NCBI GenBank assembly: GCA_014189435.1
Contig: CP050293.1
Coordinates: 5,001-69,000, forward strand
DNA: 64,000 nucleotides
Direction of reading: 5' to 3'
From: Mesorhizobium loti
Lineage (GTDB): Bacteria > Pseudomonadota > Alphaproteobacteria > Rhizobiales > Rhizobiaceae
A model generated the notes under the pieces. The model did not search any database. It was not told the DNA's origin and saw only the letters and a list, made by a program, of their open reading frames with translations. The translations under genes and the position numbers were made by a program. Below, piece by piece: positions 2,540 to 23,476 of the stretch. Numbering within the stretch: the stretch's first letter is position 1; the number at the start of each line of letters is the position of its first letter.

Positions 2540-2596
2540 GCTAAACGCACGTTGAAATCTTCTCTCTACGAAAAGGCCCGCCAATCGGGAAACCTC

Positions 2597-2617: not shown

Positions 2618-2684
2618 CATTTGGTGAGCCATCTACCTATTTGTAAGCCATCCTATTCGTAGGCCTCGGCTTACGTCCAATAAA

Positions 2685-2728
2685 GCAAGCAAGTGCTTGC
2701 CTAGGAACGCAAGCAAACGCTTGCCTAG
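2685..2728 (+). repeat. Two tandem 20-bp hairpin repeats upstream of tRNA-fMet
   Basis: Copies at 2685-2704 and 2709-2728 differ only at two central bases. Each is itself a perfect 6-bp inverted repeat (GCAAGC-N4-GCTTGC) followed by CTAG. The second copy ends 6 bp before the mature tRNA 5' end, so in the transcript they would form two tandem stem-loops in the 5' leader. Confidence 0.75.
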
Positions 2729-2734
2729 AGGTGA

Positions 2735-2811
<77 letters not shown>

Positions 2812-2816
2812 AATAT

Positions 2817-2852
2817 CAAAACGGCCCGCTAATCGCGGGCCGTTTTGCTTTT
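2817..2852 (+). terminator. Rho-independent terminator after tRNA-fMet, possibly bidirectional
   Basis: A perfect 13-bp stem (CAAAACGGCCCGC with its complement), 5-nt loop TAATC, followed by CTTTT. On the minus strand the A/T-rich lower stem could also serve the oxidoreductase gene that ends at 2911. Confidence 0.88.
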
Positions 2853-2910
2853 GGGGGACTGCTTCTCCGAACACCCCGCAGGGCGCCATTGTTGATCAAT
2901 CTCGGAGGCT

Positions 2911-7638: not shown

Positions 7639-7716
7639 GGGCCGGTGTCCTGTGCAATGGGTTCCCGATCGACGGTCCGTCGCACTCTTGTCGGGCGCGG
7701 CCGTCGACAGGCAAGG

Positions 7717-7746
7717 GGAGCCGCCTTTAAAAAGGCAGGCGGCTCC
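7717..7746 (-). other. Hairpin between binding-protein and permease genes
   Basis: A perfect 10-bp stem (GGAGCCGCCT and its complement) around a 10-nt A-rich loop. No T tract follows in either direction, so it is more likely an mRNA 3'-end stabiliser or processing barrier for the binding-protein message than a full terminator. Confidence 0.6.
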
Positions 7747-7758
7747 GGCGCCCGGCTG

Positions 7759-8970: not shown

Positions 8971-8980
8971 GTGTCGACAC
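8971..8980. promoter_or_regulatory. GTGTCGACAC operator upstream of the importer operon
   Basis: A perfect palindrome about 100 bp before the binding-protein start. A possible -35 (TTGAAC on the minus strand, near 8991) sits just upstream of it, so a bound repressor would block the promoter. It matches the sites at 9816, 17004 and 21798. Assigned to the adjacent GntR-family regulator by inference. Confidence 0.7.
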
Positions 8981-9011
8981 TATTGCGTTCAATTTTGTGC
9001 TCAGATATCGA

Positions 9012-9797
9012 TTATGCGTCGCGGGTCCTTCGCCGGCGCTTCAGATCGGCGCCATTGTCGGGCGCGAAAACCTTGAGCAGGGCATCCTTGAGCGCCTGCT
9101 GCGTGGCGGAGACGGTCATCTCGATATGTTCGCGCAACAGTTTCATGCCGTTTTCGACATCCCGCCTGACGGCGGCATCGACGATTGCCGAGTGAGAGGT
9201 GATCTGCGTCCTGTCATGCGAGGGATGTTCGATCTGGATGCGGCGGATGAAGCGGATACGCGCATTGATGGAGGTGAGCTGGCCGACGAGTTCCGGATTT
9301 CCCGACAGTTCGGCGATAAGCAGATGGAAGCCTTCGTCCTCGGCCAGGATGATGTCCGGCGGCTGGTTTTGGTAGGCGTCGACGATCGCTTCCCAGTAGC
9401 TCCGCAGCCGGTCGATTTCGCCGTCGTCGGCGCGTTCGCACATCAGCTTGAAAGCGGCGCATTCGATGATCGAGCGGAACTCGTAGAGGTCGAGCAGGCC
9501 CTCGGTGCTGAGGCTCCTGACGAAAAAGCCGCGATTGGGCGTGAGCGAAACGAAACCCTCGGAGGCGAGCCGGTTCAGCGCCTCGCGGATCGGTGTGCGC
9601 GACACGCCGAGGCTGCGCGAAAGCTGGACTTCGTTGATGCGTTCGCCGGGCTTCAGCTTGAACTCGACGAGAAGCTTGCGGATGGTGTTGTAGGCGCGTT
9701 CGCTGCTATCGGCAGCGCGGCGCGTTTCGGCCTCGTTGGCAAGGGACGGGTCGCTATCGGCGCTGGTCTCGGCTCGTTCGGTCACGACGATTCTCAT
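9012..9797 (-). CDS. GntR-family (FadR/FCD subfamily) transcriptional regulator
   Basis: 261 residues from the ATG at 9797; a longer frame exists upstream but lacks family character and would run through the divergent promoter. Winged helix at about 35-95 with recognition helix LGVSRTPIREAL (63-74), then an FCD ligand-binding domain (about 103-235) with the conserved D/E, H and H residues (LAEDEGFHLLIAELSGN, SHSAIVDAA, LREHIE) that bind metal and organic acid. Divergent from the ProC-like gene across a gap that holds a GTGTCTACAC site, suggesting autoregulation. Likely local controller of the island. Confidence 0.9.
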   Translation of the reverse strand: MRIVVTERAETSADSDPSLANEAETRRAADSSERAYNTIRKLLVEFKLKPGERINEVQLSRSLGVSRTPIREALNRLASEGFVSLTPNRGFFVRSLSTEGLLDLYEFRSIIECAAFKLMCERADDGEIDRLRSYWEAIVDAYQNQPPDIILAEDEGFHLLIAELSGNPELVGQLTSINARIRFIRRIQIEHPSHDRTQITSHSAIVDAAVRRDVENGMKLLREHIEMTVSATQQALKDALLKVFAPDNGADLKRRRRTRDA

Positions 9798-9815
9798 CTG
9801 ATTTGTATGCAGGCT

Positions 9816-9825
9816 GTGTCTACAC
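9816..9825. promoter_or_regulatory. GTGTCTACAC operator between the GntR and ProC-like genes
   Basis: Differs by one base from the perfect palindrome at 8971, 17004 and 21798. Lies 19 bp before the regulator start and 71 bp before the ProC-like start, so it can serve both divergent genes. A possible plus-strand -35 (TTGTAT, 9803) lies just upstream. Confidence 0.6.
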
Positions 9826-9895
9826 TTCGTAGAGCGCCTTTCTTTCCCAACTTCGCGTGAATGGCAAGCAGCAGGTTCAAATCCGGGGGACAACA

Positions 9896-10648
9896 ATGAT
9901 TGTAGGCATTCTTGGCGTCGGGCATCTGGCGGCGTCCATGCTGGCTGGTTTCCTGCGTTCCGGGCTCGATCCCGCGGCGATCGTGCTGTCACCGCGTGGC
10001 AAGGCGGCTGCGCTTTCCGCCCGGCACGGTTTTCGATTGGCAACCGACAATCGCGATCTCGTCGAACGATCCGATGTCGTCATTGTCGCCGTGCGTCCGG
10101 CGCATGCGCCGGACGCGGTCGCCGGCCTGCCATGGCGCACGGATCAAATAGTGGTTTCGGTTTGCGCCGGCGTAGCGCTGTCGCGGTTCGCTGTCGCGCC
10201 TGCGCGCGCGGTGCGCGCCATGCCGTTCACCGCTTCCGAAATCTGTGCCAGTCCGACAATCTATTTCCCCGACCTCGAGAAAGCGCGGGCGGTTCTCGAC
10301 CGGCTCGGCCCCTCAATCGCTCTGGCCAGTGAAACGGACTTCGAAGTGGCCACGGTCAATGCCGCCATCTATGGCTGGGTGCAGGATCTGATCCGCAGAA
10401 CGACTGAATGGTCGAGCACGCAAGGTCTCGATCCGGCAATTGGCCGCCGGCTGACGGCGATGACGTTCGTGGCCGCCGGGCGGCTGATTGAGGAGAAGGA
10501 CCAGCCGATGGATCAGATGCTCGAGGAGCTGGTGACACCGGGCGGCATCACCGAGCGGGGCCTGCGGGTGCTTTCGGCGCGCGGTGTGCCAGCCGCCTGG
10601 GAGGAGGCTTGCTCGGCCGTGCTCGACAAACTGACGAGCCCTTGCTGA
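9896..10648 (+). CDS. Pyrroline-5-carboxylate reductase-like NAD(P) oxidoreductase
   Basis: 250 residues from the ATG at 9896, which has a GGGGGA ribosome site five bases upstream; an in-frame GTG at 9857 is less likely. N-terminal Rossmann motif GILGVGHLA (4-12), then AVRP and a conserved MPFTASEI stretch in place of ProC's MPNTP. The C-terminal dimer helix contains the LVTPGGITERGLRVL segment typical of ProC. Probably reduces a cyclic imine or related product, as a divergent partner of the GntR gene. The altered MPN segment argues for a substrate other than pyrroline-5-carboxylate. Confidence 0.8.
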   Translation: MIVGILGVGHLAASMLAGFLRSGLDPAAIVLSPRGKAAALSARHGFRLATDNRDLVERSDVVIVAVRPAHAPDAVAGLPWRTDQIVVSVCAGVALSRFAVAPARAVRAMPFTASEICASPTIYFPDLEKARAVLDRLGPSIALASETDFEVATVNAAIYGWVQDLIRRTTEWSSTQGLDPAIGRRLTAMTFVAAGRLIEEKDQPMDQMLEELVTPGGITERGLRVLSARGVPAAWEEACSAVLDKLTSPC

Positions 10649-10667
10649 GGCGCAGCGCCACACGCGC

Positions 10668-11417
10668 TCACCGTTGCGGCGCGGGCGGATAGGTATGGCC
10701 GCCGGGTGCCTGTTCACTTGGTGCAACGATCAATTCGGCGATGTCGACATGGTCCGGCATCCGCAACGCGGCAACAAGCACGGCGGCAATATCGGCCGGG
10801 CCGAGCGGCCGCTGTTGCGAGTACATGCGCTTGCGCAAGCCCTCGCGGTCGCCGTCGAAGGCCTTCAGGTAGAAATCCGTTTCCACGCGGCCGGGAGCGA
10901 TCTCGGTCAGCCGCACGCCGGTGCCCGCGAGATCATAGCGCAGGATGCGGCCGGCCTGGGAAAGGCCGGCCTTTGCCGCACCATAGGTCGCCGTGCCGGG
11001 AAAGACGCCACTGGCCGCCGTGCTGGTCAGGTTGAAGATATGGCCACGCTTGCGGGCGATCATGCCCGGCAGCAACATGCGGATGAGCTGCAAGGGTGCG
11101 GTGAGGTTCAGCGCTACCACCTCGGCTGTTTCCTCCGCGCTCTGCTCATGCAGAGGGCGCACTGTCGCCAGACCGCCGGCATTGTTGATCAGCACATCGA
11201 TTTCCGCCGCACCGAGCGCGGACGCGATCGCTTCGGTGTCGCGCACATCGGCGACAAGCGGTTTTACGCGCGGCCCGAGCCTCTCCTGCAGGACCTGCAG
11301 CGCGCCATGGTTGCGCGCCAGCGCATGGACGGTCAATCCTTCCGCGACCAGGCTCTCGACGATCGCTGCGCCGATGCCTTTCGAGGCGCCGGTGACGAGG
11401 GCAGTGCGGTAGTCCAT
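10668..11417 (-). CDS. Short-chain dehydrogenase/reductase
   Basis: 249-residue classical SDR. Cofactor motif TGASKGIG (9-16), NNAG (near 88-91), catalytic Ser in STAAS and YGAAK near 145-150. Sequence style (YdfG-like, DVLINNAG, IAPGRVETDFY) suggests NADP-dependent oxidation of a 3-hydroxy acid or related alcohol. Last gene of the minus-strand operon that begins at 16966, set off from the preceding gene by a repeat element. Confidence 0.85.
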   Translation of the reverse strand: MDYRTALVTGASKGIGAAIVESLVAEGLTVHALARNHGALQVLQERLGPRVKPLVADVRDTEAIASALGAAEIDVLINNAGGLATVRPLHEQSAEETAEVVALNLTAPLQLIRMLLPGMIARKRGHIFNLTSTAASGVFPGTATYGAAKAGLSQAGRILRYDLAGTGVRLTEIAPGRVETDFYLKAFDGDREGLRKRMYSQQRPLGPADIAAVLVAALRMPDHVDIAELIVAPSEQAPGGHTYPPAPQR

Positions 11418-11443
11418 TGCCGTTCTCCTGAACCGTGACGATC

Positions 11444-11511
11444 AGAGCAATTCCAGGAAAAGTGTGAACCGGTTTTCCGTCCGGAATTGCGTCAAAACAA
11501 AAAGTTAGAGC
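11444..11511. repeat. Interspersed palindromic repeat, copy 1
   Basis: About 68 bp with imperfect inverted ends (GCAATTCCAGGAAAAG...CCGGAATTGC). A second copy in opposite orientation is at 38435-38502 with only a few differences. It fills the gap between two operon genes and also supplies the TAA stop of the upstream dehydrogenase gene. Elements of this kind are scattered in rhizobial genomes. Confidence 0.85.
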
Positions 11512-12431
11512 GCGCCGCGTTCGGCCACTGTTTTCAAAATGCCGACCAGGCCAGCTTCGCGTGCGGCCTTCAGGTCCCCGTGGCTGCGCCCGCCCACCGC
11601 CGCATTTGTCGAAGCCGTGATCGCGCGGATGGTCTCGCTGTCGAGCCTTGCGTCGAGCAGCGTGTCCCAGATCGCCTGATAGGTCGGGCCATATTTGTGC
11701 AGGAAGTCCTCGATGCCATCGGCGTTGAGGCTGTTGGAAATGAACGAACCTTGCAGGGTCCATTTCGCCCCCGGTCCGTACATGAAGGCACGATCCACGT
11801 CCTCGACCGAGGCGACGCCGTCGCGCACCAGCGCGATCGCTTCGCGCCACATGGCGCCCATCAGGCGCAAGGCGATATGGCCGGTCACTTCCCGGTTGAG
11901 CGTCACCGGTTTCTTGCCGATGGCCTCATAGATGGCGTGTGCCCGGGCGATCGCTTGTGGATCGGATGCCTTGCCGCCGACGATCTCGACCAGCGGCATC
12001 AGATGCGCCGGGTTGAAGGGATGACCGAGCACGACGCGGCCGGGCAGGCGGCACTCGCCCTGCATGTCGGACACCAGCAGGGCCGAGGAGGACGAAGCAA
12101 TGACGACCTCATCACCGACATGGTCTTCGATCTCGGCGAGCAGCCGGCGCTTGAGGGCCAGGTCTTCCGGACCGTTTTCCTGCACGAAATCGACGCCTTC
12201 GAGCGTCTCGGCAAGCGTCGGGAAAAGACGGATCGCACCGGGCGCGGCCGAGGATCCTTTCAACGCATCGAGGTCGGCCATGAGTGCAGGCAGCACCTCA
12301 TTGAAAGCCGCTTCGCGCCGCTCCGTCGGGTCGAACACGCGCACCGCGTGGCCGGCATGGGCAAAGCAAGCCGTCCAGCGCTGCCCGATGACGCCGAAGC
12401 CGACAATGCCGATGGTCAGTTTTTCCATCAC
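11505..12431 (-). CDS. 3-hydroxyacyl-CoA dehydrogenase-family NAD oxidoreductase (carnitine/gulonate dehydrogenase type)
   Basis: 308 residues. NAD motif GFGVIG (11-16), the SSSSALL and GHPFNPAHLMPLVEIV segments of the 3HCDH_N domain, then a 3HCDH C-terminal domain with NREVTGHIALRL. Size and HPFNP motif match L-carnitine 3-dehydrogenase and L-gulonate 3-dehydrogenase rather than fatty-acid enzymes. Probably oxidises a beta-hydroxy acid or beta-hydroxy quaternary amine. Start overlaps the next upstream gene (ATGA). The stop codon lies inside the repeat at 11444-11511. Confidence 0.85.
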   Translation of the reverse strand: MMEKLTIGIVGFGVIGQRWTACFAHAGHAVRVFDPTERREAAFNEVLPALMADLDALKGSSAAPGAIRLFPTLAETLEGVDFVQENGPEDLALKRRLLAEIEDHVGDEVVIASSSSALLVSDMQGECRLPGRVVLGHPFNPAHLMPLVEIVGGKASDPQAIARAHAIYEAIGKKPVTLNREVTGHIALRLMGAMWREAIALVRDGVASVEDVDRAFMYGPGAKWTLQGSFISNSLNADGIEDFLHKYGPTYQAIWDTLLDARLDSETIRAITASTNAAVGGRSHGDLKAAREAGLVGILKTVAERGAL

Positions 12432-13297
12432 CCGGCCCTCCTGCCGTCAAGCGCTGCGCGGAAGGCCTCGTTGAGGTCGTTCCATGGGATGAGAAGATCG
12501 ATCCAGGCGCCGACCCGCCCTGCAATCAGGATCGCTTCGTCGATCAGGGCATCGAACGGATAGCCCTCTTCCATCGCCGCGTTGAGCCGGAAAAGCAGGG
12601 CCGGCGTTTCCTCCATGTGGCAGAAGTCGCGCAGGCGGGTCGCTGTCTTGTCGAGCGCGATTGCCGCCGCCTGGCGCAGCACCAATTCGTCCTTCCTGCC
12701 GCGCCCAGCGCGGACCCACCAGAGGAATTCGTGCAGCACCCGCGCTTCCGATTCCGCGGTGAAGACAGGCCCTGCCGGGTGCATGATGGCGCGTGACGCG
12801 GTGACCCGGCTGATGTCGGCGGGACAGGTCGCCCACAGCGCCTTGCGCGCGGCAATGATATCCTGCGGCAGCGACGATGGCGGCGAAGGCTCGGACACGC
12901 CGCCATCCGACCGGACAAGCGTGCCTTCCAGAATACGGCGGCCCTGGTCCCGCTTCAGTGTCGCGGCAAGCTCGGCAATGCCTTCCACCGGGGCGTCGAG
13001 ATGGCCGAGAACGGTGATCTCGGCATTTTCCGCCTGAAGCGGCGCGAAGGTGATTTCGAGGAATTGGCGCACCGGCCAGTAGATGAAGGCACCGGCGGAT
13101 GCGGAAAGCACATGCGTTGCACCTTCGATATCCTCGACGAAGGGGGCATGCCAATAGATGTGGCTGCCGGCGATCTTGGGCGTATGGAGCTGCAAGCGCA
13201 TCGGCAGGGCCGAAAGCAGCGCACGGCGCGTGCGCTCGGCATCGCCGGTCAGGCGCAGCGGCCAGCTGCGCCCCTCGGCCGAGAAAATCAGGTCCAT
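12428..13297 (-). CDS. Two-part protein of unknown function, possible cyclophilin-like N-terminus
   Basis: 289 residues, no signal peptide or membrane segment. Residues 1-125 resemble the cyclophilin-like fold of the DUF3830 family (PMRLQLHTPKIAGSHIYWHAPF... HVLSASAGAFIYWPVRQFLEI...). Residues 150-285 are a separate alpha-helical region without a recognisable motif. It sits between the NIPSNAP gene (2 bp away) and the dehydrogenase (4-bp overlap), so it is part of the same pathway. The family assignment is from general resemblance only. Confidence 0.6.
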   Translation of the reverse strand: MDLIFSAEGRSWPLRLTGDAERTRRALLSALPMRLQLHTPKIAGSHIYWHAPFVEDIEGATHVLSASAGAFIYWPVRQFLEITFAPLQAENAEITVLGHLDAPVEGIAELAATLKRDQGRRILEGTLVRSDGGVSEPSPPSSLPQDIIAARKALWATCPADISRVTASRAIMHPAGPVFTAESEARVLHEFLWWVRAGRGRKDELVLRQAAAIALDKTATRLRDFCHMEETPALLFRLNAAMEEGYPFDALIDEAILIAGRVGAWIDLLIPWNDLNEAFRAALDGRRAG

Positions 13298-13298
13298 C

Positions 13299-13631
13299 TT
13301 ACTTTCCGGGATTGAAGAACGAGACGGGTTTGAGGATCTGGTTGCGCATGTCGAGAAGATAGTCGGTCTCGATCACCTTACGCCGATAAGCCTGCCATTC
13401 GGGATCGGCCTCCATGCGGTCGCGCCGCTCCTCCCGGTCGGCAAGGCTTTCATATTTCCACAGATGCACGGTGCGCGAGAGGTCGCCGATATGCGTCTGG
13501 AAGAAGCCGAAGGGCTCGCCCAGATAATGCTGCTGCATCGGCAGGCCGACGTCCTCGTAGAGTTTCAGGAAATGCGACAGCTTATTCGGACGGGCGGTAT
13601 AGGTGCGATGGTCGAAAATCATATCGAGCAC
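13299..13631 (-). CDS. NIPSNAP-family protein
   Basis: 110 residues matching one ferredoxin-like NIPSNAP domain: MIFDHRTYTARPNKLSHFLKLYEDVG at the start, HLWKYESLADREERR in the middle. These small proteins occur beside dehydrogenases and decarboxylases in catabolic operons; their chemistry is not well settled. The start may instead be the second Met (13622). Lies 56 bp after the E2 gene and directly before the unknown two-part protein. Confidence 0.85.
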   Translation of the reverse strand: MLDMIFDHRTYTARPNKLSHFLKLYEDVGLPMQQHYLGEPFGFFQTHIGDLSRTVHLWKYESLADREERRDRMEADPEWQAYRRKVIETDYLLDMRNQILKPVSFFNPGK

Positions 13632-13687
13632 TCCTTCTGGCGTTCTGTATCCGGTGCCTTCGGCGCCGGCGTGATGGTCTTGTCGGC

Positions 13688-15022
13688 TCAGCCGGCGCTT
13701 CGCACCGTCTCGGTGATCAGCCGGGCGGTGAGCGCCGGCGCTTCAATCTGCGGTACATGGCCGACGCCATCGAGAAGATGAACAGCAGTGAAGCCCGGCG
13801 CGCGGGCTGCATGAGCGGCCGGGATGACGCGGTCGAGCCTGCCCCAGATGAGCCGCGTCGGCACGGCAAGCTCGCCAAGCGCGCCCGCGAGATCGAAAGC
13901 TTGGGTGCCGTCCGGGAACAGGCTTTCGGCCATCGCGGCAAGCGCGTCACGATTGCCGGCCTTTTCCATCTGCCTGAGCGCAGCCTGCGCATAGCCGGCC
14001 GGCAAGGCCGAGGGGTCGCCGACCATCACCGTCAGCCACCGTTCGAGGGCCCGCGCCGTAGTCGCACGGGCAAGGCCGGCGATGAAGCCCGCATTGATCT
14101 CGGGGCCAAGCCCGCCTGGGGCAAGGAGCGTCACGGAGCGTACGGTAAAACGGCCCAGCCGGGCGAGCGCCAGAGCCGCCGCGCCGCCCAGGGAATGGCC
14201 GACGAGATGGGCATTGCCGACGCCCATCCCCTCCAGCCGGTCGGAGAGGAGGAAGGCGATCTCCTCGATGACGCTTGCAGGTCTTGCCGCTTCCGTACCA
14301 TGGCCGGGCAAGTCGAGGCTGATCGTCTCGATCCCCGGCCCGAGCAACGGGACAACCTGCCGCCACACGGAGCGATCCGCCCCGAAGCCGTGGATGAGGA
14401 CCACCGGCACCGTCTGCCGGGCCAGCGCCGGCGCGGCGACAGGCGATGCCTGGACTGCAGCTGGCGCCCGCTGGCCTGTACCGTCCTGTTCGTTCGCGCG
14501 GGCGGCCAGGGTGGCATCGATGTCGCGCTTCTTGATGCGCCCGTGCGGACCGCTTCCCGAAATGGCGGCAAGGTCGAGCCCAGCCGCGGCGGCAAGCCGC
14601 CGGGCCAGCGGGCTTGCGATTGCACGGCTGCCGGGCGACCGGATGGAGGAAGGCGCGTCGCTGGCCATAGGCTCGCTCGGATTGAGTTCCGCAGCCGTCG
14701 CAGTGGCCGGCGTGATCGAAGCGGATTGGCCAGCGATCGGCTTCTCGCCAACTATCGGTTTCTTATCGGAGATCGTGCCGAGCACGGCGCCCACTGGCGC
14801 TTCCTGTCCCTCGGCGAAGAAAATTTCCGCCAGCCAGCCGTCACGGTCGGCTTCGATTTCGGTCGCCGCCTTGGCAGTCTCGACGGTGACGAGAAGGTCG
14901 CCGGCCTTGACCGGATCGCCGGATTTCACCGCCCAGGCGATCACCAGCACGGTTTCCATATATTCGCCGCCGGCGCTGTCGATGCTGATCGGGTGGGTCG
15001 CCATCGCCGCCGCCCCCGTCAC
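13688..15022 (-). CDS. Lipoyl-domain E2-like protein fused to an alpha/beta hydrolase (AcoC type)
   Basis: 444 residues in three parts. Lipoyl domain about 8-85 with the lipoylated Lys in ETAKA (K51). Peripheral-subunit-binding domain about 130-170 (SPLARRLAAAAGLDLAAISGSGPHGRIKKRDI). Alpha/beta hydrolase about 205-440 with nucleophile motif GHSLGG (S277). This is the architecture of the acetoin dehydrogenase E2 component, in which the hydrolase fold replaces the usual acyltransferase. The GTG start overlaps the E1-beta stop (GTGA); an ATG at 15004 is the alternative. Confidence 0.88.
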   Translation of the reverse strand: MTGAAAMATHPISIDSAGGEYMETVLVIAWAVKSGDPVKAGDLLVTVETAKAATEIEADRDGWLAEIFFAEGQEAPVGAVLGTISDKKPIVGEKPIAGQSASITPATATAAELNPSEPMASDAPSSIRSPGSRAIASPLARRLAAAAGLDLAAISGSGPHGRIKKRDIDATLAARANEQDGTGQRAPAAVQASPVAAPALARQTVPVVLIHGFGADRSVWRQVVPLLGPGIETISLDLPGHGTEAARPASVIEEIAFLLSDRLEGMGVGNAHLVGHSLGGAAALALARLGRFTVRSVTLLAPGGLGPEINAGFIAGLARATTARALERWLTVMVGDPSALPAGYAQAALRQMEKAGNRDALAAMAESLFPDGTQAFDLAGALGELAVPTRLIWGRLDRVIPAAHAARAPGFTAVHLLDGVGHVPQIEAPALTARLITETVRSAG

Positions 15023-15993
15023 TTCAGCGTCTTCAGCGCGGCGGTGCGGATCTTCTCGGCACTTGGCAGCATCGCCGTTTCCAGCGGTTCGGAATAAGGG
15101 ATCGGCATATCCGGCAGCGTGACGCGCGCGACCGGCGCGTCCAGTTCGTCGAAGGCGTGGTCCATGATCGTTGCCGAAAGCTCGGCGGCATAACCGCAGA
15201 AGCGCCAGCCCTCGTTGACCACCACGGCATGGTGCGTTTTGGCGATCGAGGCAACGATGGCATTGACGTCGAGCGGGCGCAGCGACCGGAGATCGACAAT
15301 CTCGGCCGAAACGCCGTCGGCCGCGAGAAGCTCCGCGGCCTTCAACGCCTCGACCACCATCTTGGAGGTGGCGAATATCGAGATATCGCTGCCCTCGCGC
15401 AGGGTTGCCGCCTTGCCGAGCGGCACGGTCACATCGCCTTCCGGAACCTCGCCGCGAGTGTTGTAGAGCAGCTTGTGCTCGAGGAAGACGACCGGCTGGT
15501 CGTCGCGGATCGCGGCCTTCAGCATGCCCTTGGCGTCGGCGGGCGTCGAAGGGGCAACGACCTTGATGCCGGGTATGTGGGCAAGCATGGAATCGAGCGA
15601 CTTGGAGTGCTGCGCGCCGGCACCGGCGCCGCCGCCGCCCTGTGTGCGCAAGACGAACGGCATCTTCACCTGGCCGTTCCAGATGTAGTTGTAGATCGAG
15701 GCCTGGTTGACCAGCGCATCGAGCGTCAGCGGCACGAAATCCGCATACATGATTTCCAGCACCGGCCGTGTGCCGGTCATGGCGGCGGTCACCGCCATGG
15801 CGGTCAGCGCCTGTTCGGAGATCGGCGTGTCGCGCACCCGCGTTTCGCCGAATTCCTCCATCAGCCCTTTCGTCACCTTGAAGACGCCGCCATAGCGGCC
15901 GATGTCCTCGCCGAAGACGAAGACGGAAGGGTCGGCCTGCATCTCTTCGCGCAGTGCCGCATTGAGCGCTTCGGCATACCGCATCATGGCCAT
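15019..15993 (-). CDS. 2-oxoacid (acetoin/pyruvate-type) dehydrogenase E1 beta subunit
   Basis: 324 residues from the ATG at 15993, next to the E1-alpha stop. Shows the E1-beta sequence run: VFVFGEDIGRYGGVFKVTKGL, RVRDTPISEQALTAMAVTAA, then QGGGGAGAGAQHSKSLDSMLAHIPGIKVVAPSTPADAKGM. With E1 alpha it forms the heterotetramer that decarboxylates a 2-oxo acid or cleaves acetoin using thiamine diphosphate. No E3 (lipoamide dehydrogenase) gene is present in the window, so it would use one encoded elsewhere. Confidence 0.92.
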   Translation of the reverse strand: MAMMRYAEALNAALREEMQADPSVFVFGEDIGRYGGVFKVTKGLMEEFGETRVRDTPISEQALTAMAVTAAMTGTRPVLEIMYADFVPLTLDALVNQASIYNYIWNGQVKMPFVLRTQGGGGAGAGAQHSKSLDSMLAHIPGIKVVAPSTPADAKGMLKAAIRDDQPVVFLEHKLLYNTRGEVPEGDVTVPLGKAATLREGSDISIFATSKMVVEALKAAELLAADGVSAEIVDLRSLRPLDVNAIVASIAKTHHAVVVNEGWRFCGYAAELSATIMDHAFDELDAPVARVTLPDMPIPYSEPLETAMLPSAEKIRTAALKTLK

Positions 15994-15994
15994 G

Positions 15995-16966
15995 TCAGTG
16001 TGCCTCGCTGTAGGGGTTGCAGGCTTCGTCGAGCGAGAATTCTGGCATCGGGTCGGAGAGGGCGGCAGCGAATGCCTCGCCCACCTCAGCCTTGGCCGCC
16101 GCCTCGACTGCCGCGAGTTTCGCCTCGCCGACGTCGCCCAAAAGCGCCTTGCGCGAGACCAGCAGGGGGTCACGTTCTTTCCAGGCCGCAATATCCTCCG
16201 GCTTCTGGTAGCCGCCCATGTCGGAGGTTGAAAAACCCTCGATACGGTAGGTCTTGCATTCGACCATGCCGGGGCCTTCGCCGCGCCGGGCACGCTCGAC
16301 CATGGCCGACACGGCGCGATAGACGGCCACCGCGTCATTGCCGTCGACGATCTCGGCCGGCATCGCATAGCCGGCGGCACGGATCGACAGGTCCTCGACC
16401 GGCGACTGGACTTCGGAGGGAACGGTCAGGCCGAACTGGTTGTGTTCGAGCACGAAGACGACCGGCAGTTTCCAGAGCCCCGCCATGTTCATGGCTTCGT
16501 GACAGATGCCGGTTTGCGCGGCGCCGTCGCCAAAGACGCACATGGCGACATTGCCGGTGCCGAGGATCTGCATCGACAGCGCCATGCCGGTGGCGGCTGG
16601 AATGCCTGCGCCGACAATGGCGTTGCCGCCGATCACGCCCTTTTCGGCATCGGCCACCAGCATGTGGCCGGCGCGCCCGCCGCAGGCACCGGTGGCCCGC
16701 CCGAAGATCTCGGCCACAACCGGGTGCACGGCCATGCCCTTGCCGATATAGACCGCGTGGCCACGATGGGTGGTGGCGACCTTGTCGCCGACCTCCAGCA
16801 CGGCGGTCGCGGCGACACCGACGGCTTCCTGGCCGTCGCAGCGATGGATCGGACCGCGCGTGCGTCCTTCCTTGTGAAGCGCCCCAAGGCCCTCTTCGAG
16901 ATGCCGCACCAGCAGCATCCGGCGATAGATTTCCAGATGTTGTTCGACGGAAGGAGTGTTTTTCAC
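15995..16966 (-). CDS. 2-oxoacid (acetoin/pyruvate-type) dehydrogenase E1 alpha subunit
   Basis: 323 residues from the GTG at 16966; no ATG gives a full N-terminus. The thiamine diphosphate motif runs from GDGAAQTGICHEAMNMAGLWKLP to the following HNQFG. Also shows HRGHAVYIGKG and GRAGHMLVADAEKGVIGGNAIVGAG. The last two features are typical of the acetoin-dehydrogenase alpha subunit and its relatives. First gene of the minus-strand operon that runs to 10668. A GTGTCGACAC operator sits between its proposed -35 and -10. Confidence 0.9.
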   Translation of the reverse strand: MKNTPSVEQHLEIYRRMLLVRHLEEGLGALHKEGRTRGPIHRCDGQEAVGVAATAVLEVGDKVATTHRGHAVYIGKGMAVHPVVAEIFGRATGACGGRAGHMLVADAEKGVIGGNAIVGAGIPAATGMALSMQILGTGNVAMCVFGDGAAQTGICHEAMNMAGLWKLPVVFVLEHNQFGLTVPSEVQSPVEDLSIRAAGYAMPAEIVDGNDAVAVYRAVSAMVERARRGEGPGMVECKTYRIEGFSTSDMGGYQKPEDIAAWKERDPLLVSRKALLGDVGEAKLAAVEAAAKAEVGEAFAAALSDPMPEFSLDEACNPYSEAH

Positions 16967-16992
16967 TGATATCCCCGAGTTCGTGCCGAAAT

Positions 16993-17020
16993 TAAATACA
17001 AAAGTGTCGACACTTTGCAA
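16993..17020 (-). promoter_or_regulatory. Proposed promoter of the E1-alpha operon
   Basis: On the minus strand, TTGCAA (17020-17015) and TATTTA (16998-16993) are separated by 16 bp that contain the whole GTGTCGACAC palindrome. Such placement predicts repression by occlusion. It is a sequence match only. Confidence 0.5.
17001..17016. promoter_or_regulatory. AAAGTGTCGACACTTT operator between the E1-alpha operon and the SDR gene
   Basis: The longest copy of the motif, a perfect 16-bp palindrome. It lies in the divergent gap, 35 bp from the E1-alpha start and 54 bp from the SDR start, and can act on both. Confidence 0.75.
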
Positions 17021-17069
17021 GCGCTTCTGCAAGATAGGGCAAAACAAGTTTGTGAAAAGGGGATCGATC

Positions 17070-17816
17070 ATGCGTTTGGAGGGCAAAGCGGCCATCATCA
17101 CCGGAGCCGGCGCCGGTATCGGCGCAGCCGTCACGGAACTGTTTGTAAAGGAGGGCGCGCGCGTTCTGGCCGTCGACCGCGACGGCGCGCGGGCCAGCGA
17201 GGTGGCCGGCAGGACCGGAGTGCTGGCCTCGGAGGCCGACGTCTCGGACGAAGCCTCCGTGGCGACGATGGTGCGCCGCGCGCAAGAGGCATTCGGCCGG
17301 GTGGACATCCTGGTCAACAATGCCGGTTACGGCATACGCGGCTCGGTCGTCACCACTGCGGCGGCGGATTGGGACGCGCTCATGGCCGTGAACCTCAAGG
17401 GCGTCTTTCTCTGCTCCAAATATGTCATTCCCGTCATGACCGCGGGTGGTGGCGGGGTGATCGTGAACACCGCTTCCAACGTGGCCCATGTCGGACTTGC
17501 CGATCGGGCGGCCTATGTCGCCTCCAAGGGCGGCGTCGCGGCGCTGACGCGTGCCATGGCGCTTGACCATGTCGCAGACAAGATCCGCGTCAACGCCGTG
17601 GCGCCGGGTGTGACCTGGTCGAGCTATTTCGAAACCATGCTGGAAACCCATCCCGACCCTCAGGGGTTTGTCGCGGCATTGAATGCGCGTTCGCCGATGA
17701 ATCGCGTCGCGCAACCGGTTGAAATCGCCAATGCAATCCTGTGGCTCGCCAGCGACGAATCCTCTTTCGCCACCGGCTCGATCCTGACAGTCGATGGCGG
17801 CATGAGCGCCTGGTAG
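17070..17816 (+). CDS. Short-chain dehydrogenase/reductase
   Basis: 248-residue classical SDR, from the ATG at 17070 preceded by AAAAGGGGATC. Cofactor motif TGAGAGIG (11-18), NNAG, catalytic Ser in NTASN and YVASK, and the family C-terminus GSILTVDGGMSAW. The D at the end of beta-2 (AVDRD) favours NAD over NADP. Divergent from the dehydrogenase-complex operon and shares its operator, so it is probably a step of the same pathway. Substrate unknown. Confidence 0.88.
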   Translation: MRLEGKAAIITGAGAGIGAAVTELFVKEGARVLAVDRDGARASEVAGRTGVLASEADVSDEASVATMVRRAQEAFGRVDILVNNAGYGIRGSVVTTAAADWDALMAVNLKGVFLCSKYVIPVMTAGGGGVIVNTASNVAHVGLADRAAYVASKGGVAALTRAMALDHVADKIRVNAVAPGVTWSSYFETMLETHPDPQGFVAALNARSPMNRVAQPVEIANAILWLASDESSFATGSILTVDGGMSAW

Positions 17817-17856
17817 GGCGCGCGCCTGTCGATGGCGGAAAACGAAACCTGCCGCT

Positions 17857-19596
17857 TCAGGCAACTGACTGAATGGAACGCAGGGCGCGCAGCATCTCGT
17901 CGAGGTCGGCGCAGGGCAGGCAGCCAAGGTCCGCAATGTCCTTGGTCACGTCGACCGGCAGGCCTGAATTGGACTCCTTGGGCACTTCGTTCAATCGTCC
18001 GCCGATGAGCACCGGCAAGGCAAGTCCGCGTGCCGCCATTGCTGCTTTCACCGCCTGTGCATAACGCAGCGCCACGCCGTTGTAGGTGCTGACGGCAATG
18101 GCATCGGCCCCGGTTTCGGCGGCGCGGGCGACGAGCGTTTCCGGGTCGACGGCCACACCGGCATCGGCGATGGCGATGCCCAGGCCTTCGAGCGCCTGTT
18201 CGACCAGATATTTGCCGTGCTCATGCACGTCGGTGGTGCCGATGCAGACGGTCAGGGGTCTAGGGCTTTCCAGCGGCTTTTGCGTCGCGACCCAGGCGAC
18301 CGCCTTGTGGTTGAGCTCGCGTGCCCATTCGGCATGGATCAGCGGCGTGCGCCCGCGCGCGCCGTCGGCACCCGGGCCGAACAGCGTCTCCATGCGCTTC
18401 GGCCCCATGCGGCGGATGGCGAACATCAGCGCGGCCGGGTCTTCGGTATCCACCCCCCGCTCGGCCAGCCCCTTCATGACGGCACCGGCAAAGCGGCGCC
18501 CGCCTTCGACCAGCACATCGGCCATTGCCTCCACTTTGGTCCAGTTGAAAACCGGATCATAGAACGGTGCGTGCAGCGTGAGCCGGTGTGCGAAGGTCTG
18601 CGCATCGATAATCTCGTCGACATCGGGAATGCGCTGATTCTCGGTCACCGGCACCGGATTGATCGCGTGGCCGGACGGCCATCGCCCGACAGCGAGTATG
18701 TCTGCCAGGAGGTAGCTCGCCAGGCTCGCGTAATTGCCCGCCGGGGTCGACTGGTAGGAAACGGTGTTGCCGAAGATCATGGTGCCCGGCGTGTCGCTGA
18801 CCCGCACCAGCGCGGCATGGAAGGCAGCGCGCGACAGCGGATCGCTGAAATGGTGGCCGTAGCAATGGCCGAGCCGCGCGCCGATCAGATCCTCGACGAT
18901 GTGCTTTTCGACCAGCACCATGCCGAGCGCGCAAGCCATGTCGATGAACAATCCGGCGAAGCCGTCGTCGAGATTGGAATGGACGAGGATTTCGGCCTCC
19001 TGCGCGGCGATCAGGCCGAGCGCGGTGACGGTCGCTTCCGTGGTCGCCACGTCATCGTCCCAATAGGGCAGGCGGAAGGTGAAATACTGCCCCAGATTGC
19101 CGATGGCCGTTGCCCCGGCGGCGATCGCGGCGCGGGTGTTTTCCACCGCGCCCGGCAGGCCGAGCATGAAGTCGCCGAAATGCGCCGCGGCGGGCGCGGC
19201 ATTGGTGATGCGCGCGAAATCCTCTGGGCCGGTGAGCACGATGCCGGTGCCGCGTGCGGCCTTGGCGCGCATGGCCTGGGGATACCCCATCGACCAGTCG
19301 AGGGTGATGCCGAAACGATCGACTGTCACGCCTGCCTTGCGGCATTGCTCGTGCACCTCGCCGATTGCCACCACGGTGCGGTCGACGCTTCTGAAACCGA
19401 TATGGGCGTGCTGCATGACGCGCTTTTCGGCTGCCGCCTTGCGCTTCCATGCGGCTTCGGACGGCATTCCGGTCTCGGTGAGGAAACGGCAACTGCCGAG
19501 CCGCCAGTCGCGCGCCATGGCGCGTCCTTCGGCGAGGAGGTCGGCGCCAGGCTTGAGGCGCGGGTCGATGAGAGCGGGGGCGATTTCAGCGGTCAT
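17857..19596 (-). CDS. B12-binding protein with a mutase-like N-terminal domain
   Basis: 579 residues from the ATG at 19596. The C-terminal 135 residues form a cobalamin-binding Rossmann domain: DVHEHG (456-461, the DxHxxG base-off motif with H458), AVST near 502, and LIGG near 534. The long N-terminal region (about 1-440) has the look of a TIM barrel and recalls the catalytic chain of glutamate mutase (GNLGQYFTFRLPYW...), but I cannot match it to a named mutase. It probably performs a carbon-skeleton or amine rearrangement in one chain. Overlaps the hydrolase gene by 11 bp; last gene of a four-gene operon. Confidence 0.78.
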   Translation of the reverse strand: MTAEIAPALIDPRLKPGADLLAEGRAMARDWRLGSCRFLTETGMPSEAAWKRKAAAEKRVMQHAHIGFRSVDRTVVAIGEVHEQCRKAGVTVDRFGITLDWSMGYPQAMRAKAARGTGIVLTGPEDFARITNAAPAAAHFGDFMLGLPGAVENTRAAIAAGATAIGNLGQYFTFRLPYWDDDVATTEATVTALGLIAAQEAEILVHSNLDDGFAGLFIDMACALGMVLVEKHIVEDLIGARLGHCYGHHFSDPLSRAAFHAALVRVSDTPGTMIFGNTVSYQSTPAGNYASLASYLLADILAVGRWPSGHAINPVPVTENQRIPDVDEIIDAQTFAHRLTLHAPFYDPVFNWTKVEAMADVLVEGGRRFAGAVMKGLAERGVDTEDPAALMFAIRRMGPKRMETLFGPGADGARGRTPLIHAEWARELNHKAVAWVATQKPLESPRPLTVCIGTTDVHEHGKYLVEQALEGLGIAIADAGVAVDPETLVARAAETGADAIAVSTYNGVALRYAQAVKAAMAARGLALPVLIGGRLNEVPKESNSGLPVDVTKDIADLGCLPCADLDEMLRALRSIQSVA

Positions 19597-20398
19597 GATA
19601 TTGGCTGTCGGCCTTGGCAATGAAACGACGAATGACGGCGGCAAAACCTTCGGGGTCGGCGAGGGGATGAAAATGCGCACCGGGAACTGAAACAAACCGG
19701 GCACCCGGTATCGCAGCGGCGATCGCCTCTGAAAGGGCCGGGGGCGTCAAGATGTCGCCGGTGGCCGCAATCACCTGGACCGGGGCATCGATGCGCGGCA
19801 GATCGGCGAGGCGATCATGGTCGAGCAGCATGCGCACGCGTGCGGCGCTCACCGTCAACGGCGCCAGGGTGTCAGGGGCGGCGGCGACGGCTGCCTCGAG
19901 CTGTCCGGCATGGGTATCGAGGTAGGACGGCTCGTGGCAGAGCACATGGCCGAGGCGCTGATAGGTTTCGGCCATGCCGGCCTCCAGCAGTTCGGCGCGG
20001 GCGCTGAAGAGCATGCGGAAACGGCTGTCGGCTCGCGCCCAGGAGCTGCTGATCGTATAGCCCAGGCCGAGTTCCGCATGATCGAGCGCCAGCACCTGCG
20101 CGATGGCGCCGCCGGTGGAATGCCCGACAATATGGGCGGGACCGCCCGTTTGCGCCAGCAGGCCGGCAATGTCGCTGGCGATCAGGGGAATGGAGCAGGG
20201 GCTTTCCGGGCGATCGCTGCGACCGGCGCCGCGATGATCGGTGACGATGATGCGATGGTCGGCCGCAAGCAGGCGTACCACACCGGCCCAGAATCTTCCG
20301 TCACCGCCGAGCCCCGGGATGAGGACGAGGCGCGGGCCATGGCCGTCTGATGTCTCGTAGTGGATGCGGCAGCCATCGGCGGCGGTGAAGAAGGGCAT
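19586..20398 (-). CDS. Alpha/beta hydrolase
   Basis: 270 residues of the alpha/beta hydrolase fold: oxyanion region PGLGGDGRFW (28-37), DHRGAGRSDRP, nucleophile elbow GHSTGG (S94), acid Asp in ATGDILTPP and catalytic His in GAHFHPLAD. 3-oxoadipate enol-lactonase-like in style, so a lactone, ester or C-C hydrolase are all possible. Starts on the last base of the aspartate-dehydrogenase-like stop (TGATG) and overlaps the B12 gene. Confidence 0.85.
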   Translation of the reverse strand: MPFFTAADGCRIHYETSDGHGPRLVLIPGLGGDGRFWAGVVRLLAADHRIIVTDHRGAGRSDRPESPCSIPLIASDIAGLLAQTGGPAHIVGHSTGGAIAQVLALDHAELGLGYTISSSWARADSRFRMLFSARAELLEAGMAETYQRLGHVLCHEPSYLDTHAGQLEAAVAAAPDTLAPLTVSAARVRMLLDHDRLADLPRIDAPVQVIAATGDILTPPALSEAIAAAIPGARFVSVPGAHFHPLADPEGFAAVIRRFIAKADSQYHDR

Positions 20399-21174
20399 CA
20401 GTGACGGCCCTCCCTGTCGAGCAACTCGCCAAGCGCCGCGACGAGGCTGAGCGCGGTCAGCACCGAAGTCTTGGGATTGCCGGGCGAGGGCGCGTTGACG
20501 AGGCGAAAGGAGGCGGTGCCGGCGGTACTCTCGACCTCGATTTCATGCGTGTTGCCGGTAGCTTTCGGATCGGCAACCACGCTCACGGTGACCTTGTCGA
20601 TGCCTACAGCGAGCGCCACGGTGAAGGCGGCGTTGAGGTTTTTTGGATAGAGTTTTGCCGCTTGCGCCGGCGTGCCCTCGAAGAGGGATACCGCCTCGTG
20701 CTCGGCCGACAGGCCAAGGGCGGCAAGCTCGGCTTCCCAGGCTGCCGGTGGTTTGCGCGAGGTGTAGCGTACCCTGGCATCGGGAAGGGCGGCTATCGCC
20801 CTGAGATAATCGAGGCCGCCCAACGAGCCTGACGGCAGGACCAAGCACGGGCCACTGTTGCGCGAAGCATCGGTCAATCGGGCGGCAAGCATCGGATCGG
20901 AGAACGCACCGATCGAAGCGACTATGGTCGGGATGCCGGCGTCGAGAAGCGCGGGCACATAGGCGGCCACCGCCTCCTGGCTTGCCGCCTCCACCACCGC
21001 CCTGGGGCGCGCATCGATCAGCGCATCCAGCCGCGTGACAGTGCTGACGTTCGCCGGCAGTGCGGGGCGGGCGCCCTCGCGCGTCAGCGCTACCCAGCGA
21101 CATGAGTCCTGCGGGAAAGCGGAGACGATCTCGCGCGCGATCGTGCCGAAGCCGATGAGGCCGAGCGTCACCAT
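20398..21174 (-). CDS. L-aspartate dehydrogenase-like NAD(P) oxidoreductase
   Basis: 258 residues. N-terminal Rossmann motif GLIGFGTIA (5-13), then VVEAASQEAV, LPSGSLGGLDYLRA and the C-terminal LYPKNLNAAFTVALAVGIDKVTV segment characteristic of the NadX/aspartate dehydrogenase family. In this setting it may interconvert an imino acid or oxo acid and an amino acid rather than feed NAD synthesis: no nadA or nadC neighbour is present and it is embedded in the island operon. Second gene after the cupin, 11 bp away. Confidence 0.82.
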   Translation of the reverse strand: MVTLGLIGFGTIAREIVSAFPQDSCRWVALTREGARPALPANVSTVTRLDALIDARPRAVVEAASQEAVAAYVPALLDAGIPTIVASIGAFSDPMLAARLTDASRNSGPCLVLPSGSLGGLDYLRAIAALPDARVRYTSRKPPAAWEAELAALGLSAEHEAVSLFEGTPAQAAKLYPKNLNAAFTVALAVGIDKVTVSVVADPKATGNTHEIEVESTAGTASFRLVNAPSPGNPKTSVLTALSLVAALGELLDREGRH

Positions 21175-21185
21175 CCGAGGCTTCT

Positions 21186-21722
21186 TCAGGGATTCTGCTT
21201 CAGGGGATCGAACTTGTCGGCGAGGTCTGCCCCGAACACCGTCTTGCGCTCGATCTCCAGGACGTTTTCCGGGCGCGGGAAATTGGACGGCACGCGGTCG
21301 CCCGGCTTGCGCGGCTTGCCGATCAGGCGAAAGAAGTCCTCGAGCCCGTTCGGCACGATCAACCAGATCCAGCGCAGGCGCGTGTCGCCATCGTTGATGA
21401 ACATGTGCCGGACATTCTTCGGCAGGAACACAACGCTGTCCGGTTCCAGCGGATATTCCTTGCCGTCGATGACGGCGCGGCCATGGCCTTCGATGACGTA
21501 GACAGTCTCTTCGTTGCGGTCATGCGTGTGTTCTCGCACATAGCCGCCGGGCGCCACCGATTGCGTGCCCAGCGCGAAGGGGTGCTCCATGCCGACGATG
21601 TGCGGCGCGAGCGCGATGTCGATATGACCGTTTGCCGGCACCGGCTGCCAGTAGCTTTCGCGCGTTTCGGATCCGGAAACATGGATGCCTGACGGAGCGG
21701 GTTGAAGGCTGGTGTCGTCCAT
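21186..21722 (-). CDS. Cupin-domain protein
   Basis: 178 residues from the ATG at 21722, preceded by GAGAGGC. A single cupin barrel: motif 1 GGYVREHTHDRNEETVYVIEGHG gives His, His and Glu ligands and motif 2 is the LPKNVRHMFIN run. Could be a small metal dioxygenase, isomerase or ligand-binding protein. First gene of the operon cupin / aspartate-dehydrogenase-like / hydrolase / B12 protein. Its promoter region contains the GTGTCGACAC site. Confidence 0.82.
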   Translation of the reverse strand: MDDTSLQPAPSGIHVSGSETRESYWQPVPANGHIDIALAPHIVGMEHPFALGTQSVAPGGYVREHTHDRNEETVYVIEGHGRAVIDGKEYPLEPDSVVFLPKNVRHMFINDGDTRLRWIWLIVPNGLEDFFRLIGKPRKPGDRVPSNFPRPENVLEIERKTVFGADLADKFDPLKQNP

Positions 21723-21797
21723 GGCTCTGCCTCTCGAAAGGAGCTGCGAAGGTCGTGCGGGGCACGCTGCTGACCAAGAGAGGGTACAGCGCAAAAA

Positions 21798-21807
21798 GTG
21801 TCGACAC
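21798..21807. promoter_or_regulatory. GTGTCGACAC operator between cupin operon and flavoprotein gene
   Basis: Perfect palindrome flanked by an A-rich left side, as in the 8971 and 17004 copies. It lies 76 bp from the cupin start and 65 bp from the flavoprotein start. On the minus strand it overlaps a plausible -35 (TTGTGT) 17 bp from TACCCT. Confidence 0.72.
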
Positions 21808-21812
21808 AATAG

Positions 21813-21840
21813 TAGACAGATTAAATTTCCTGCCTCTATA
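21813..21840 (+). promoter_or_regulatory. Proposed promoter of the flavoprotein gene
   Basis: TAGACA and TCTATA with a 16-bp spacer, directly downstream of the operator. The ATG follows about 30 bp after the -10. Sequence match only. Confidence 0.45.
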
Positions 21841-21871: not shown

Positions 21872-23476
21872 ATGGGCGAGTACGACGTTCTGGTGATCGG
21901 TTCGGGATCGGCGGCCTGCTCGGCGGCGCTGCGGGCCGCCAAGGGCGGCCTCAAGGTTCTGGTGATCGAAAAGAGCGAATGGCTGGGCGGCACCTCGGCC
22001 ATGTCCGGTGCCGGGGTCTGGATACCCGCCAACCATGTCGCAGCGGAGGCCGGCATCGCCGACAGCCGCGAGGATGCGCTCGCCTATCTGCGTGCGGTCG
22101 CGCCCGAAGGGTGGGAGCAGAAGGAAGATGCGCTCTGGGGCGCGTTCGCCAAGGCCGCGCCGGATATGCTGCACTTCCTGTCCGTCAACACGCCGCTCGA
22201 TTTTCGCCTGATCAACGAGCCGGACCCCTTTGCCGAAGCACCTGGCGGCAAGCTCTACGGCCGCATGCTTTCGCCGAGGCCGCTCAGCCGCCGTATCCTG
22301 GGCAAGTTTGCACGGAGCCTGCGCCGCTCCACCTTGCCGCACAGCTTCACCTACCAGGAGATCGTCGACCTCGATCTCTATCACCATCCCATCCGCGCCG
22401 GGTTCAAGGTCTGGCCGAAGCTTCTATGGCGATGGCTGACGAATTCCGGCGGCCAGGGCACGGCCCTGATGACCGGGCTCATCAAGGGCTGTCTCGATGC
22501 CGGCGTCACCTTTCAGCCGGGAACGCGCGCCGTCACCCTGCTTCAGGATCCGGATTCGCGCATCACCGGCGCGGAAGTGGAGCGCGAGGACCAGCGCACG
22601 AAGATCGTCGCGCGTCGCGGCGTCGTCATCGCCACCGGCGGCTTCGAATGGGACGCCGAGATGCGCGCACGCCACTTCCCAGGTGCGTTCGACCGGATCG
22701 GCAGTCCGCGCGGCAATGAGGGCGACGGCCAGAAGCTTGCGGCTTCCGTTGGCGCGCTGCTGGACCGCATGGATCAGGCGAACGTCTATCCCTGCCTGCC
22801 GACGCGCTACCAGGGAAAATCGCACGGCTTGCCTATGACCTTCCAGGCCGAGCCGCACTCGATCGTGGTCGATCGCGACGCAAAGCGCTTTGTCAGCGAA
22901 AACGCCTTCAACATCGGCGAGGCGATCGATGCGCGCGGGCCGGACGGCGCGCCGATCCATCTGCCCTGCTATCTCGTTGGCGATCATCGTTTCCTGAAAA
23001 CGTCGCTGCCTTTCCGCTGGTATGCCTCCTACGAGCGCGATTGGATCAAGAAGGCCGATACGATCGCTGGCCTTGCCGCCAAGCTCGGACTGCCGGCAGC
23101 GGCGCTTGATGAGACAATCGCCCGCTGGAACGGCTTTTGCGCGAAGGGGCACGATGCGGACTTCCAACGCGGCGACAATGGTTGGGAGGCATACAAGGCG
23201 CATGGCCCCGAGAATCGGCTGAAGCCGATCGACAAAGCGCCCTATGTCGGCATGACGATCAATCGCTCGATCCTCGGCACCAAGGGCGGCGCCCGCACCA
23301 ATGAGCGCGCGCAGGTGTTGAGGCCGGACGGTTCGATCATCCCCGGCCTCTATGCGGCAGGGCTTGCAATGGCCAACCCCATCGGCACGCGCGCCGTAGG
23401 AGCCGGCACGACGCTAGGCCCCAATTTGACATGGGGCTTCATCGCCGCCGAGACGATCCTGCATCAAAACCGGTGA
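21872..23476 (+). CDS. FAD-binding dehydrogenase of the fumarate reductase / ketosteroid-1-dehydrogenase family
   Basis: 534 residues. FAD motif VIGSGSAACSAALRAAKGG (8-26) and acidic end VIEKSEWLGGTSAMSGAGVW, VVIATGGFEWD in the middle, and the C-terminal GLYAAGLAMANPIGTRAVGAGTTLGPNLTWGFIAAE flavin loop. GGTSAMSGAG is typical of FAD_binding_2 enzymes that introduce or reduce C=C bonds next to a carbonyl. Cytoplasmic, no signal peptide. Single gene divergent from the cupin/B12 operon, sharing its operator. Confidence 0.88.
   Translation: MGEYDVLVIGSGSAACSAALRAAKGGLKVLVIEKSEWLGGTSAMSGAGVWIPANHVAAEAGIADSREDALAYLRAVAPEGWEQKEDALWGAFAKAAPDMLHFLSVNTPLDFRLINEPDPFAEAPGGKLYGRMLSPRPLSRRILGKFARSLRRSTLPHSFTYQEIVDLDLYHHPIRAGFKVWPKLLWRWLTNSGGQGTALMTGLIKGCLDAGVTFQPGTRAVTLLQDPDSRITGAEVEREDQRTKIVARRGVVIATGGFEWDAEMRARHFPGAFDRIGSPRGNEGDGQKLAASVGALLDRMDQANVYPCLPTRYQGKSHGLPMTFQAEPHSIVVDRDAKRFVSENAFNIGEAIDARGPDGAPIHLPCYLVGDHRFLKTSLPFRWYASYERDWIKKADTIAGLAAKLGLPAAALDETIARWNGFCAKGHDADFQRGDNGWEAYKAHGPENRLKPIDKAPYVGMTINRSILGTKGGARTNERAQVLRPDGSIIPGLYAAGLAMANPIGTRAVGAGTTLGPNLTWGFIAAETILHQNR

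Follow-up and report, generated by a model that had tools for sequence, protein, structure and literature searches.

A conserved palindrome as the predicted operator of a FadR-subfamily GntR regulator in a 21-gene catabolic island of Mesorhizobium loti

GntR-family regulators of the FadR subfamily recognise operators with the consensus NyGTM-N0-1-KACNy, and PMC4494728, which gives it, also describes groups with a 2-nt spacing, PrpR among them. PrpR (PA0797), the regulator of the 2-methylcitrate cycle in Pseudomonas aeruginosa, has the predicted operator ATTGTCGACAAT and binds a 250-bp region upstream of prpR that contains it; PrpR is a repressor, and deletion of prpR makes PrpB constitutive (PMC9765439). 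The locus compared here lies in Mesorhizobium loti (assembly GCA_014189435.1, contig CP050293.1), in a 64-kb stretch of DNA analysed as a whole and hereafter called the window, which comprises bases 5001-69000 of the 7.22-Mb replicon in a genome of 8.33 Mb. It carries an island of catabolic genes, copies of the palindrome GTGTCKACAC in the gaps between them, and a GntR-family protein encoded at 9012-9797. This FCD-type protein probably represses a local 21-gene regulon, its own gene included, until a ligand releases it, with the palindrome as its predicted operator, and judged from sequence it is likely to switch the 20-kb block on and off. Computation shows where the sites lie, how they rank in the genome, how far they are conserved and that they accompany the GntR clade.

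A pattern search of the window places GTGTCGACAC at 8971, 17004 and 21798 and GTGTCTACAC at 9816, with no fifth copy of GTGTCKACAC, as a preliminary description of this DNA had stated; the seven strand matches compare with a mean of 0.15 in shuffled sequence, and none of 100 shuffles reached seven. That the sites occupy the island's four regulatory gaps, another of its claims, agrees with the gene models, by which all four are intergenic (LivK/GntR, GntR/ProC-like, E1-alpha/SDR and cupin/flavoprotein); mechanical open reading frame (ORF) lists also place spurious frames across them. Predicted operator 1 (8971-8980, AAAGTGTCGACACTAT; like the others, given no strand) lies in the livK/gntR gap, where the candidate -35 box TTGACG of the importer operon begins 4 bp after it, and predicted operator 2 (9816-9825), a weak one, in the divergent gntR/proC-like gap. 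The strongest, predicted operator 3 (17004-17013, AAAGTGTCGACACTTT), falls within the spacer of the candidate E1-alpha promoter (TTGCAA-18-TTTAAT), while predicted operator 4 (21798-21807), between the divergent cupin and flavoprotein genes, precedes the candidate promoter of the latter (TAGACA-18-TATAGT) by 5 bp. In an unfiltered profile search of the window, 9816 was the weakest site with 7.2-9.1 bits, against 14.2-19.2 for the other three. A half-site-like TAGACAG is present at 21813-21819, 5 bp past operator 4, and also in locus L068; extra half-sites comparable to it have been described for GntR regulators (PMC4494728).

The proposed operator binder, encoded on the reverse strand at 9012-9797, matches the Pfam GntR domain PF00392 with 59.8 bits (cutoff 27) and the FCD domain PF07729 with 92.1 bits (cutoff 24.3), so that a FadR-subfamily regulator does sit inside the gene set and beside a site, as had been supposed. 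Among the 15 NCBIfam models matched, no named GntR equivalog exceeded its cutoff, the best being PhnR with 95.2 against 271.5 bits; no prp-type gene, such as a member of the PrpR orthologue group would have beside it, is found among the genes identified in the island by Pfam and NCBIfam scans. When the FadR-subfamily consensus is fitted to the sites, it gives a GTC-GAC core at three island gaps and GTC-TAC at 9816, and the predicted switch is a further member of this known kind. A literature search found no published description of this palindrome as a GntR operator, an entry in RegPrecise being possible.

The bare decamer occurs at 17 genomic places, four in the island and 13 elsewhere, and these 13 further copies led to its rejection as a genome-wide marker. 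Nine of them lie within ORFs having a Pfam match, whether inside or between domains (L008, L009, L011, L012, L017), in a long beta-helix ORF (L015, L016) or ahead of the first domain (L005, L010); two are in ORFs to which Pfam assigns no family (L013, L014), two are apparently intergenic (L006, L007), and none of the 13 has A/T arms on both sides. The 14-mer AAGTGTCGACACTT has its best matches at 17004 (no mismatch) and 8971 (one), followed by 21798 with two, tied with four other places, and 9816 with three. Because its count in the genome at up to three mismatches, 126 per strand, scarcely exceeds the 119 of a reversed control, profiles were used instead, built from alignments of 38 and 29 chosen sites, a subset of all sites. 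With the best 150 of 2631 candidates scored, the 38-site profile reports three genomic places at E<=10, all in the island (8971, 17004 and 21798), and the 29-site profile, from which Mesorhizobium sites were left out, reports the same three with the best 150 of 3079 candidates scored; the strong sites are thus predicted by the DNA of other genera alone. Site 9816 is not reported by these genome-wide scans at E<=10. Equal copies in unrelated places, which the preliminary description had said would count against it, are not what the profiles return, the three strong island sites being all that they report. Elsewhere the genome has TATTGTCGACAATT twice at a distance of 152 bp (G000:C1:2199899 and 2200051), perhaps as sites of another FCD regulator.

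Relatives of the regulator were gathered from named genomes (17 loci), from 397 genomes of the order (10 matches at E<=1e-60) and from 394 genomes of the family (10 matches). Each set of ten includes the genome of the window itself. The islands around the relatives were examined over stretches of at most 20 kb. In 18 representative loci, 2304 half-site palindromes with gaps of 0-8 were counted in intergenic gaps; near-duplicates (L018-L028, L032-L034, L065) as well as L030, L052 and L055 were omitted, and Mesorhizobium was represented by the window and L029. TGTC-GACA (TGTCGACA) heads all 2304, with 38 copies in 17 of the 18 loci, and ranks 2-5 are taken by this site in longer frames. Across 100 dinucleotide shuffles TGTCGACA was found in 0.24 loci on average and in two at most, and the best of any palindrome reached eight. 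The single miss, L049, carries the near form TGTAGACA.

Among the loci that have the regulator clade and could be tested, TGTNNACA lies within 250 bp upstream of LivK in 32 of 35 and upstream of gntR in 29 of 32, and TGTCGACA precedes E1-alpha in 26 of 29 with the clade in the stretch. Where E1-alpha occurs without the clade in the stretch (L122, L124, L126-L128), the site is found within 250 bp upstream in none of five; L122 belongs to genome G004, which elsewhere has a 48% GntR relative, L055, without the site. Mesorhizobium loci have the site in the same gaps as the window wherever the stretch extends that far, and when operons are rearranged the palindrome moves with the promoters. In L050 the E1 operon is inverted and the site remains ahead of E1-alpha; in L053 and L054 it lies between gntR and E1-alpha. 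The L066 stretch, in which no E1 gene was recognised, has it ahead of NIPSNAP. E1 genes were likewise not found in the stretches of L068, nor in those of three plasmid loci, Sinorhizobium RAC02 (L138), Shinella H4-D48 (L139) and Shinella oryzae (L141); sites in this group, some of them TGTAGACA or TGTCTACA, occupy the B12/flavoprotein gap, the ProC/GntR gap, the GntR/LivK gap and a position ahead of ORFX. Neorhizobium NCHU2750 (L140) carries the long form, in which sites precede the flavoprotein operon and E1-alpha and also flank gntR on either side. The regulator (E<=1e-60) and ORFX co-occur in all 10 of the 397 order genomes that have the regulator, and ORFX is present without it in seven further order genomes at 37-48% identity. 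That one clade accompanies the site across genera and operon rearrangements lends comparative support to assigning the palindrome to the 9012-9797 protein, as first proposed. L067 also holds a second GntR paralogue (2373-3167, 42%) beside a DAO gene, with TGTCTACA upstream.

The candidate promoters suggest how such a switch might operate. A promoter scan of the region reported one sigma-70-like pair (shuffle mean 2.0), the one adjoining 21798, and the candidate E1-alpha promoter reads TTGCAA-AGTGTCGACACTTTTGTA-TTTAAT, a block kept in Ochrobactrum L031, in which the predicted operator fills the spacer; this geometry, together with the sites next to the -35 boxes of the importer and flavoprotein genes, suggests a repressor covering the polymerase site. 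As to the earlier claim that two sites overlap or abut plausible -35/-10 boxes, the scan recovered the pair at 21798, and the other boxes come from a best-match script and conservation. In the proposed mechanism the FCD-type protein would bind AA-GTGTCGACAC-TT as a dimer at the island's control points and block transcription, within the -35/-10 spacer at E1-alpha and against the -35 box of the importer and flavoprotein genes. A pathway metabolite would then bind the FCD domain and release the regulator, so that the importer, oxidases, dehydrogenase complex and B12 protein would be induced together; by analogy with other FCD regulators, this inducer may be a pathway intermediate. The weak site at 9816, beside gntR, would provide probable autoregulation.

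Several observations weigh against this proposal. The count of 17 of 18 loci becomes 17 of 21 once L030, L052 and L055 are scored as misses, and these three are relatives of the regulator (68%, 50% and 48% identity) without a perfect site nearby, L030 having just TTGTTTACAA in a gap and L052 not adjoining an island. The upstream counts have misses of their own, at LivK (L030, L053, L054), E1-alpha (L048, L049, L051) and GntR (L030, L050, L067); L048 has the site further upstream, ahead of NIPSNAP, and in L053 and L054 the E1 genes stand upstream of livK. Nor are these counts independent, since many of the loci are close Mesorhizobium relatives (12 of the 26 E1-alpha matches, the window excluded), and the genome profile scans scored 150 first-look candidates each. 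The DNA-binding helix is near-invariant in the regulator clade, and L052 and L055 have it too, so that covariation of site and helix could not be shown. The promoter boxes are weak matches, those other than at 21798 depending on a hand-set script and conservation. Chance, or a general genome feature such as a frequent palindrome or structural repeat, nonetheless is hardly credible as the source of the sites: the 13 further decamers and the poor standing of the 14-mer against its control would fit it, but nine of those decamers lie in Pfam-supported ORFs and none is flanked by A/T arms on both sides, while the profiles report island sites alone and the palindrome is conserved across genera.

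It is quite unlikely that the palindrome serves another FCD/GntR paralogue or a different regulator encoded elsewhere, the neighbouring GntR being merely linked to it. The TGTCGACA core is indeed not private to this protein, as it recurs in the predicted PrpR operator and, in L097, TTGTCGACAA stands close to a 36% GntR homologue; linkage of regulator and site could also come from shared ancestry of the whole island. Yet the two are found together in several genera, carried by the 7.2-Mb replicon in this genome and by plasmids in Sinorhizobium, Shinella and Neorhizobium, the five E1-alpha loci without this GntR in the stretch lack the site, and the gap beside gntR has it at the frequency given above, as autoregulation predicts. 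The same GntR-operator pair could instead work mainly by activation or as a dual regulator, an unlikely alternative to which 8971 and 21798 lend themselves, both lying directly upstream of a candidate -35 box, a position that activators also use. Against it, the strongest site fills the E1-alpha spacer and does so in Ochrobactrum as well, which is the usual place of a repressor, and PrpR, whose predicted operator has this core, acts as a repressor (PMC9765439). Repression by the 9012-9797 protein through the palindrome is the preferred reading.

Gene reading with Pfam and NCBIfam gives 21 genes in seven units between 2911 and 23476, instead of the roughly 18 first estimated, with operon limits inferred from gene order and spacing: livKHMGF with the DAO oxidase (six genes), gntR, the ProC-like gene, E1-alpha to SDR (seven), SDR 2, cupin to B12 protein (four) and the flavoprotein gene. 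On the reverse strand, a DAO-type flavin adenine dinucleotide (FAD) amine oxidase (2911-4200; nearest NCBIfam model L-pipecolate oxidase AmaA, below cutoff) is followed by the ABC importer (4193-8871), with livF at 4193-4942, livG at 4866-5696, livM at 5693-6688 and livH at 6688-7638, all named from sequence and the annotation of a homologous locus, and livK at 7759-8871, named from domain and model scans. Beyond gntR, Pfam and NCBIfam scans identify a ProC-like NAD(P) oxidoreductase on the forward strand (9896-10648) and, on the reverse strand, SDR 1 (10668-11417). The same operon continues on that strand with a 3-hydroxyacid dehydrogenase (11505-12431) related to carnitine 3-dehydrogenase, under that model's cutoff, then ORFX (12428-13297), a NIPSNAP protein (13299-13622; Pfam scan of residues 1-105, stop read from the sequence), an AcoC-like lipoyl/E3-binding/alpha-beta hydrolase protein (13688-15022; Pfam/NCBIfam) and the E1-beta (15019-15993) and E1-alpha (15995-16966) subunits of a thiamine pyrophosphate-dependent 2-oxo acid or acetoin-type dehydrogenase. 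SDR 2 (17070-17816) is on the forward strand. The fused B12 mutase-like protein (17857-19596), an alpha/beta hydrolase (19586-20398), an aspartate-dehydrogenase-family protein (20398-21174) and a cupin (21186-21722; Pfam scan) are on the reverse, and an FAD-binding, 3-ketosteroid-dehydrogenase-like flavoprotein (21872-23476) is on the forward, these and SDR 2 named from Pfam/NCBIfam scans where not otherwise stated. The island adjoins the end of an rRNA operon (seen by eye) and tRNA-Met (2735-2811), within 1-2811, and the contigs of L018, L021 and L022 stop within about 300 bases past the DAO gene.

Two proteins of the island resemble known enzymes in predicted structure. The Pictet-Spenglerases McbB and KslB have biosynthetic roles, whereas ORFX stands in a catabolic island. 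ORFX has no Pfam family over cutoff, its named relatives are hypothetical or uncharacterized proteins, and its sequence profile matched no PDB chain at E<=10; its predicted fold matches McbB across nearly the whole chain, and the model appears to share the fold of the Pictet-Spenglerases McbB and KslB (PDB 3x27, 9nst and others) at 15% identity. The B12 protein, scanned without its start codon, combines a glutamate-mutase-E-like barrel with a C-terminal B12-binding domain, and its DxHxxG residues D455, H457 and G460 are invariant in 72 sequences; the predicted mutase barrel together with this motif suggests an adenosylcobalamin mutase. It is likened to the glutamate mutase E subunit, lysine 5,6-aminomutase and methylmalonyl-CoA mutase at about 10% identity, with barrel and B12 domain in one chain in contrast to the two-subunit glutamate mutase. 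Relatives of it occur in 15 of 385 genomes of the class, the window's own counted. The 14 stretches read around them had no match to E1, ORFX or LivK and were dropped as regulon controls, since they say little about the operator; in 10 of the 14, from other alphaproteobacteria and outside this island type, the protein is paired with a ProC-like one, and the varied neighbours of such pairs (10 proteins, two loci) gave no common substrate hint. Close to one such pair, TAATTGTCGACAATTTG at L097:7939 has a 36% GntR homologue and a PhyH-type ORF next to it and may belong to a related switch whose arms differ. In L098 the B12 protein is present in five tandem copies, one with an internal stop.

These enzymes allow a possible, if doubtful, reading of the island as an undescribed pathway of cyclic amine or alkaloid-like catabolism, in which the McbB-fold protein would cleave or rebuild a Pictet-Spengler-type ring, the fused B12 mutase would rearrange the product and the GntR protein would sense an intermediate; if so, the operators would be a ready reporter for the substrate. 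The fused B12 mutase-like and McbB-fold proteins are enzyme types whose new chemistry would interest widely. A loosely named enzyme cluster becomes one probable 21-gene regulon with a defined predicted switch, the operator of which is specific enough that a 17004-promoter reporter could serve in a compound screen for the substrate.

The predicted switch can be set beside switches already described. The GTM-KAC core without a central base is common to FadR-subfamily operators and the island site (PMC4494728), and in the present authors' own alignment the subfamily box TKGT/ACMA fits the island's GTGT/ACAC at three of four positions, the outermost T being G. PrpR is an FCD-type GntR repressor of a catabolic operon with a predicted operator upstream of its own gene, as is proposed for the island protein, and the PrpR operator shares with the island site the eight central bases TGTCGACA and the 2-nt spacing of GT and AC. 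The arms differ, ATT/AAT in PrpR against AAG/CTT in the island, as do the pathways, and the likeness is one of operators and descriptions rather than of aligned proteins.

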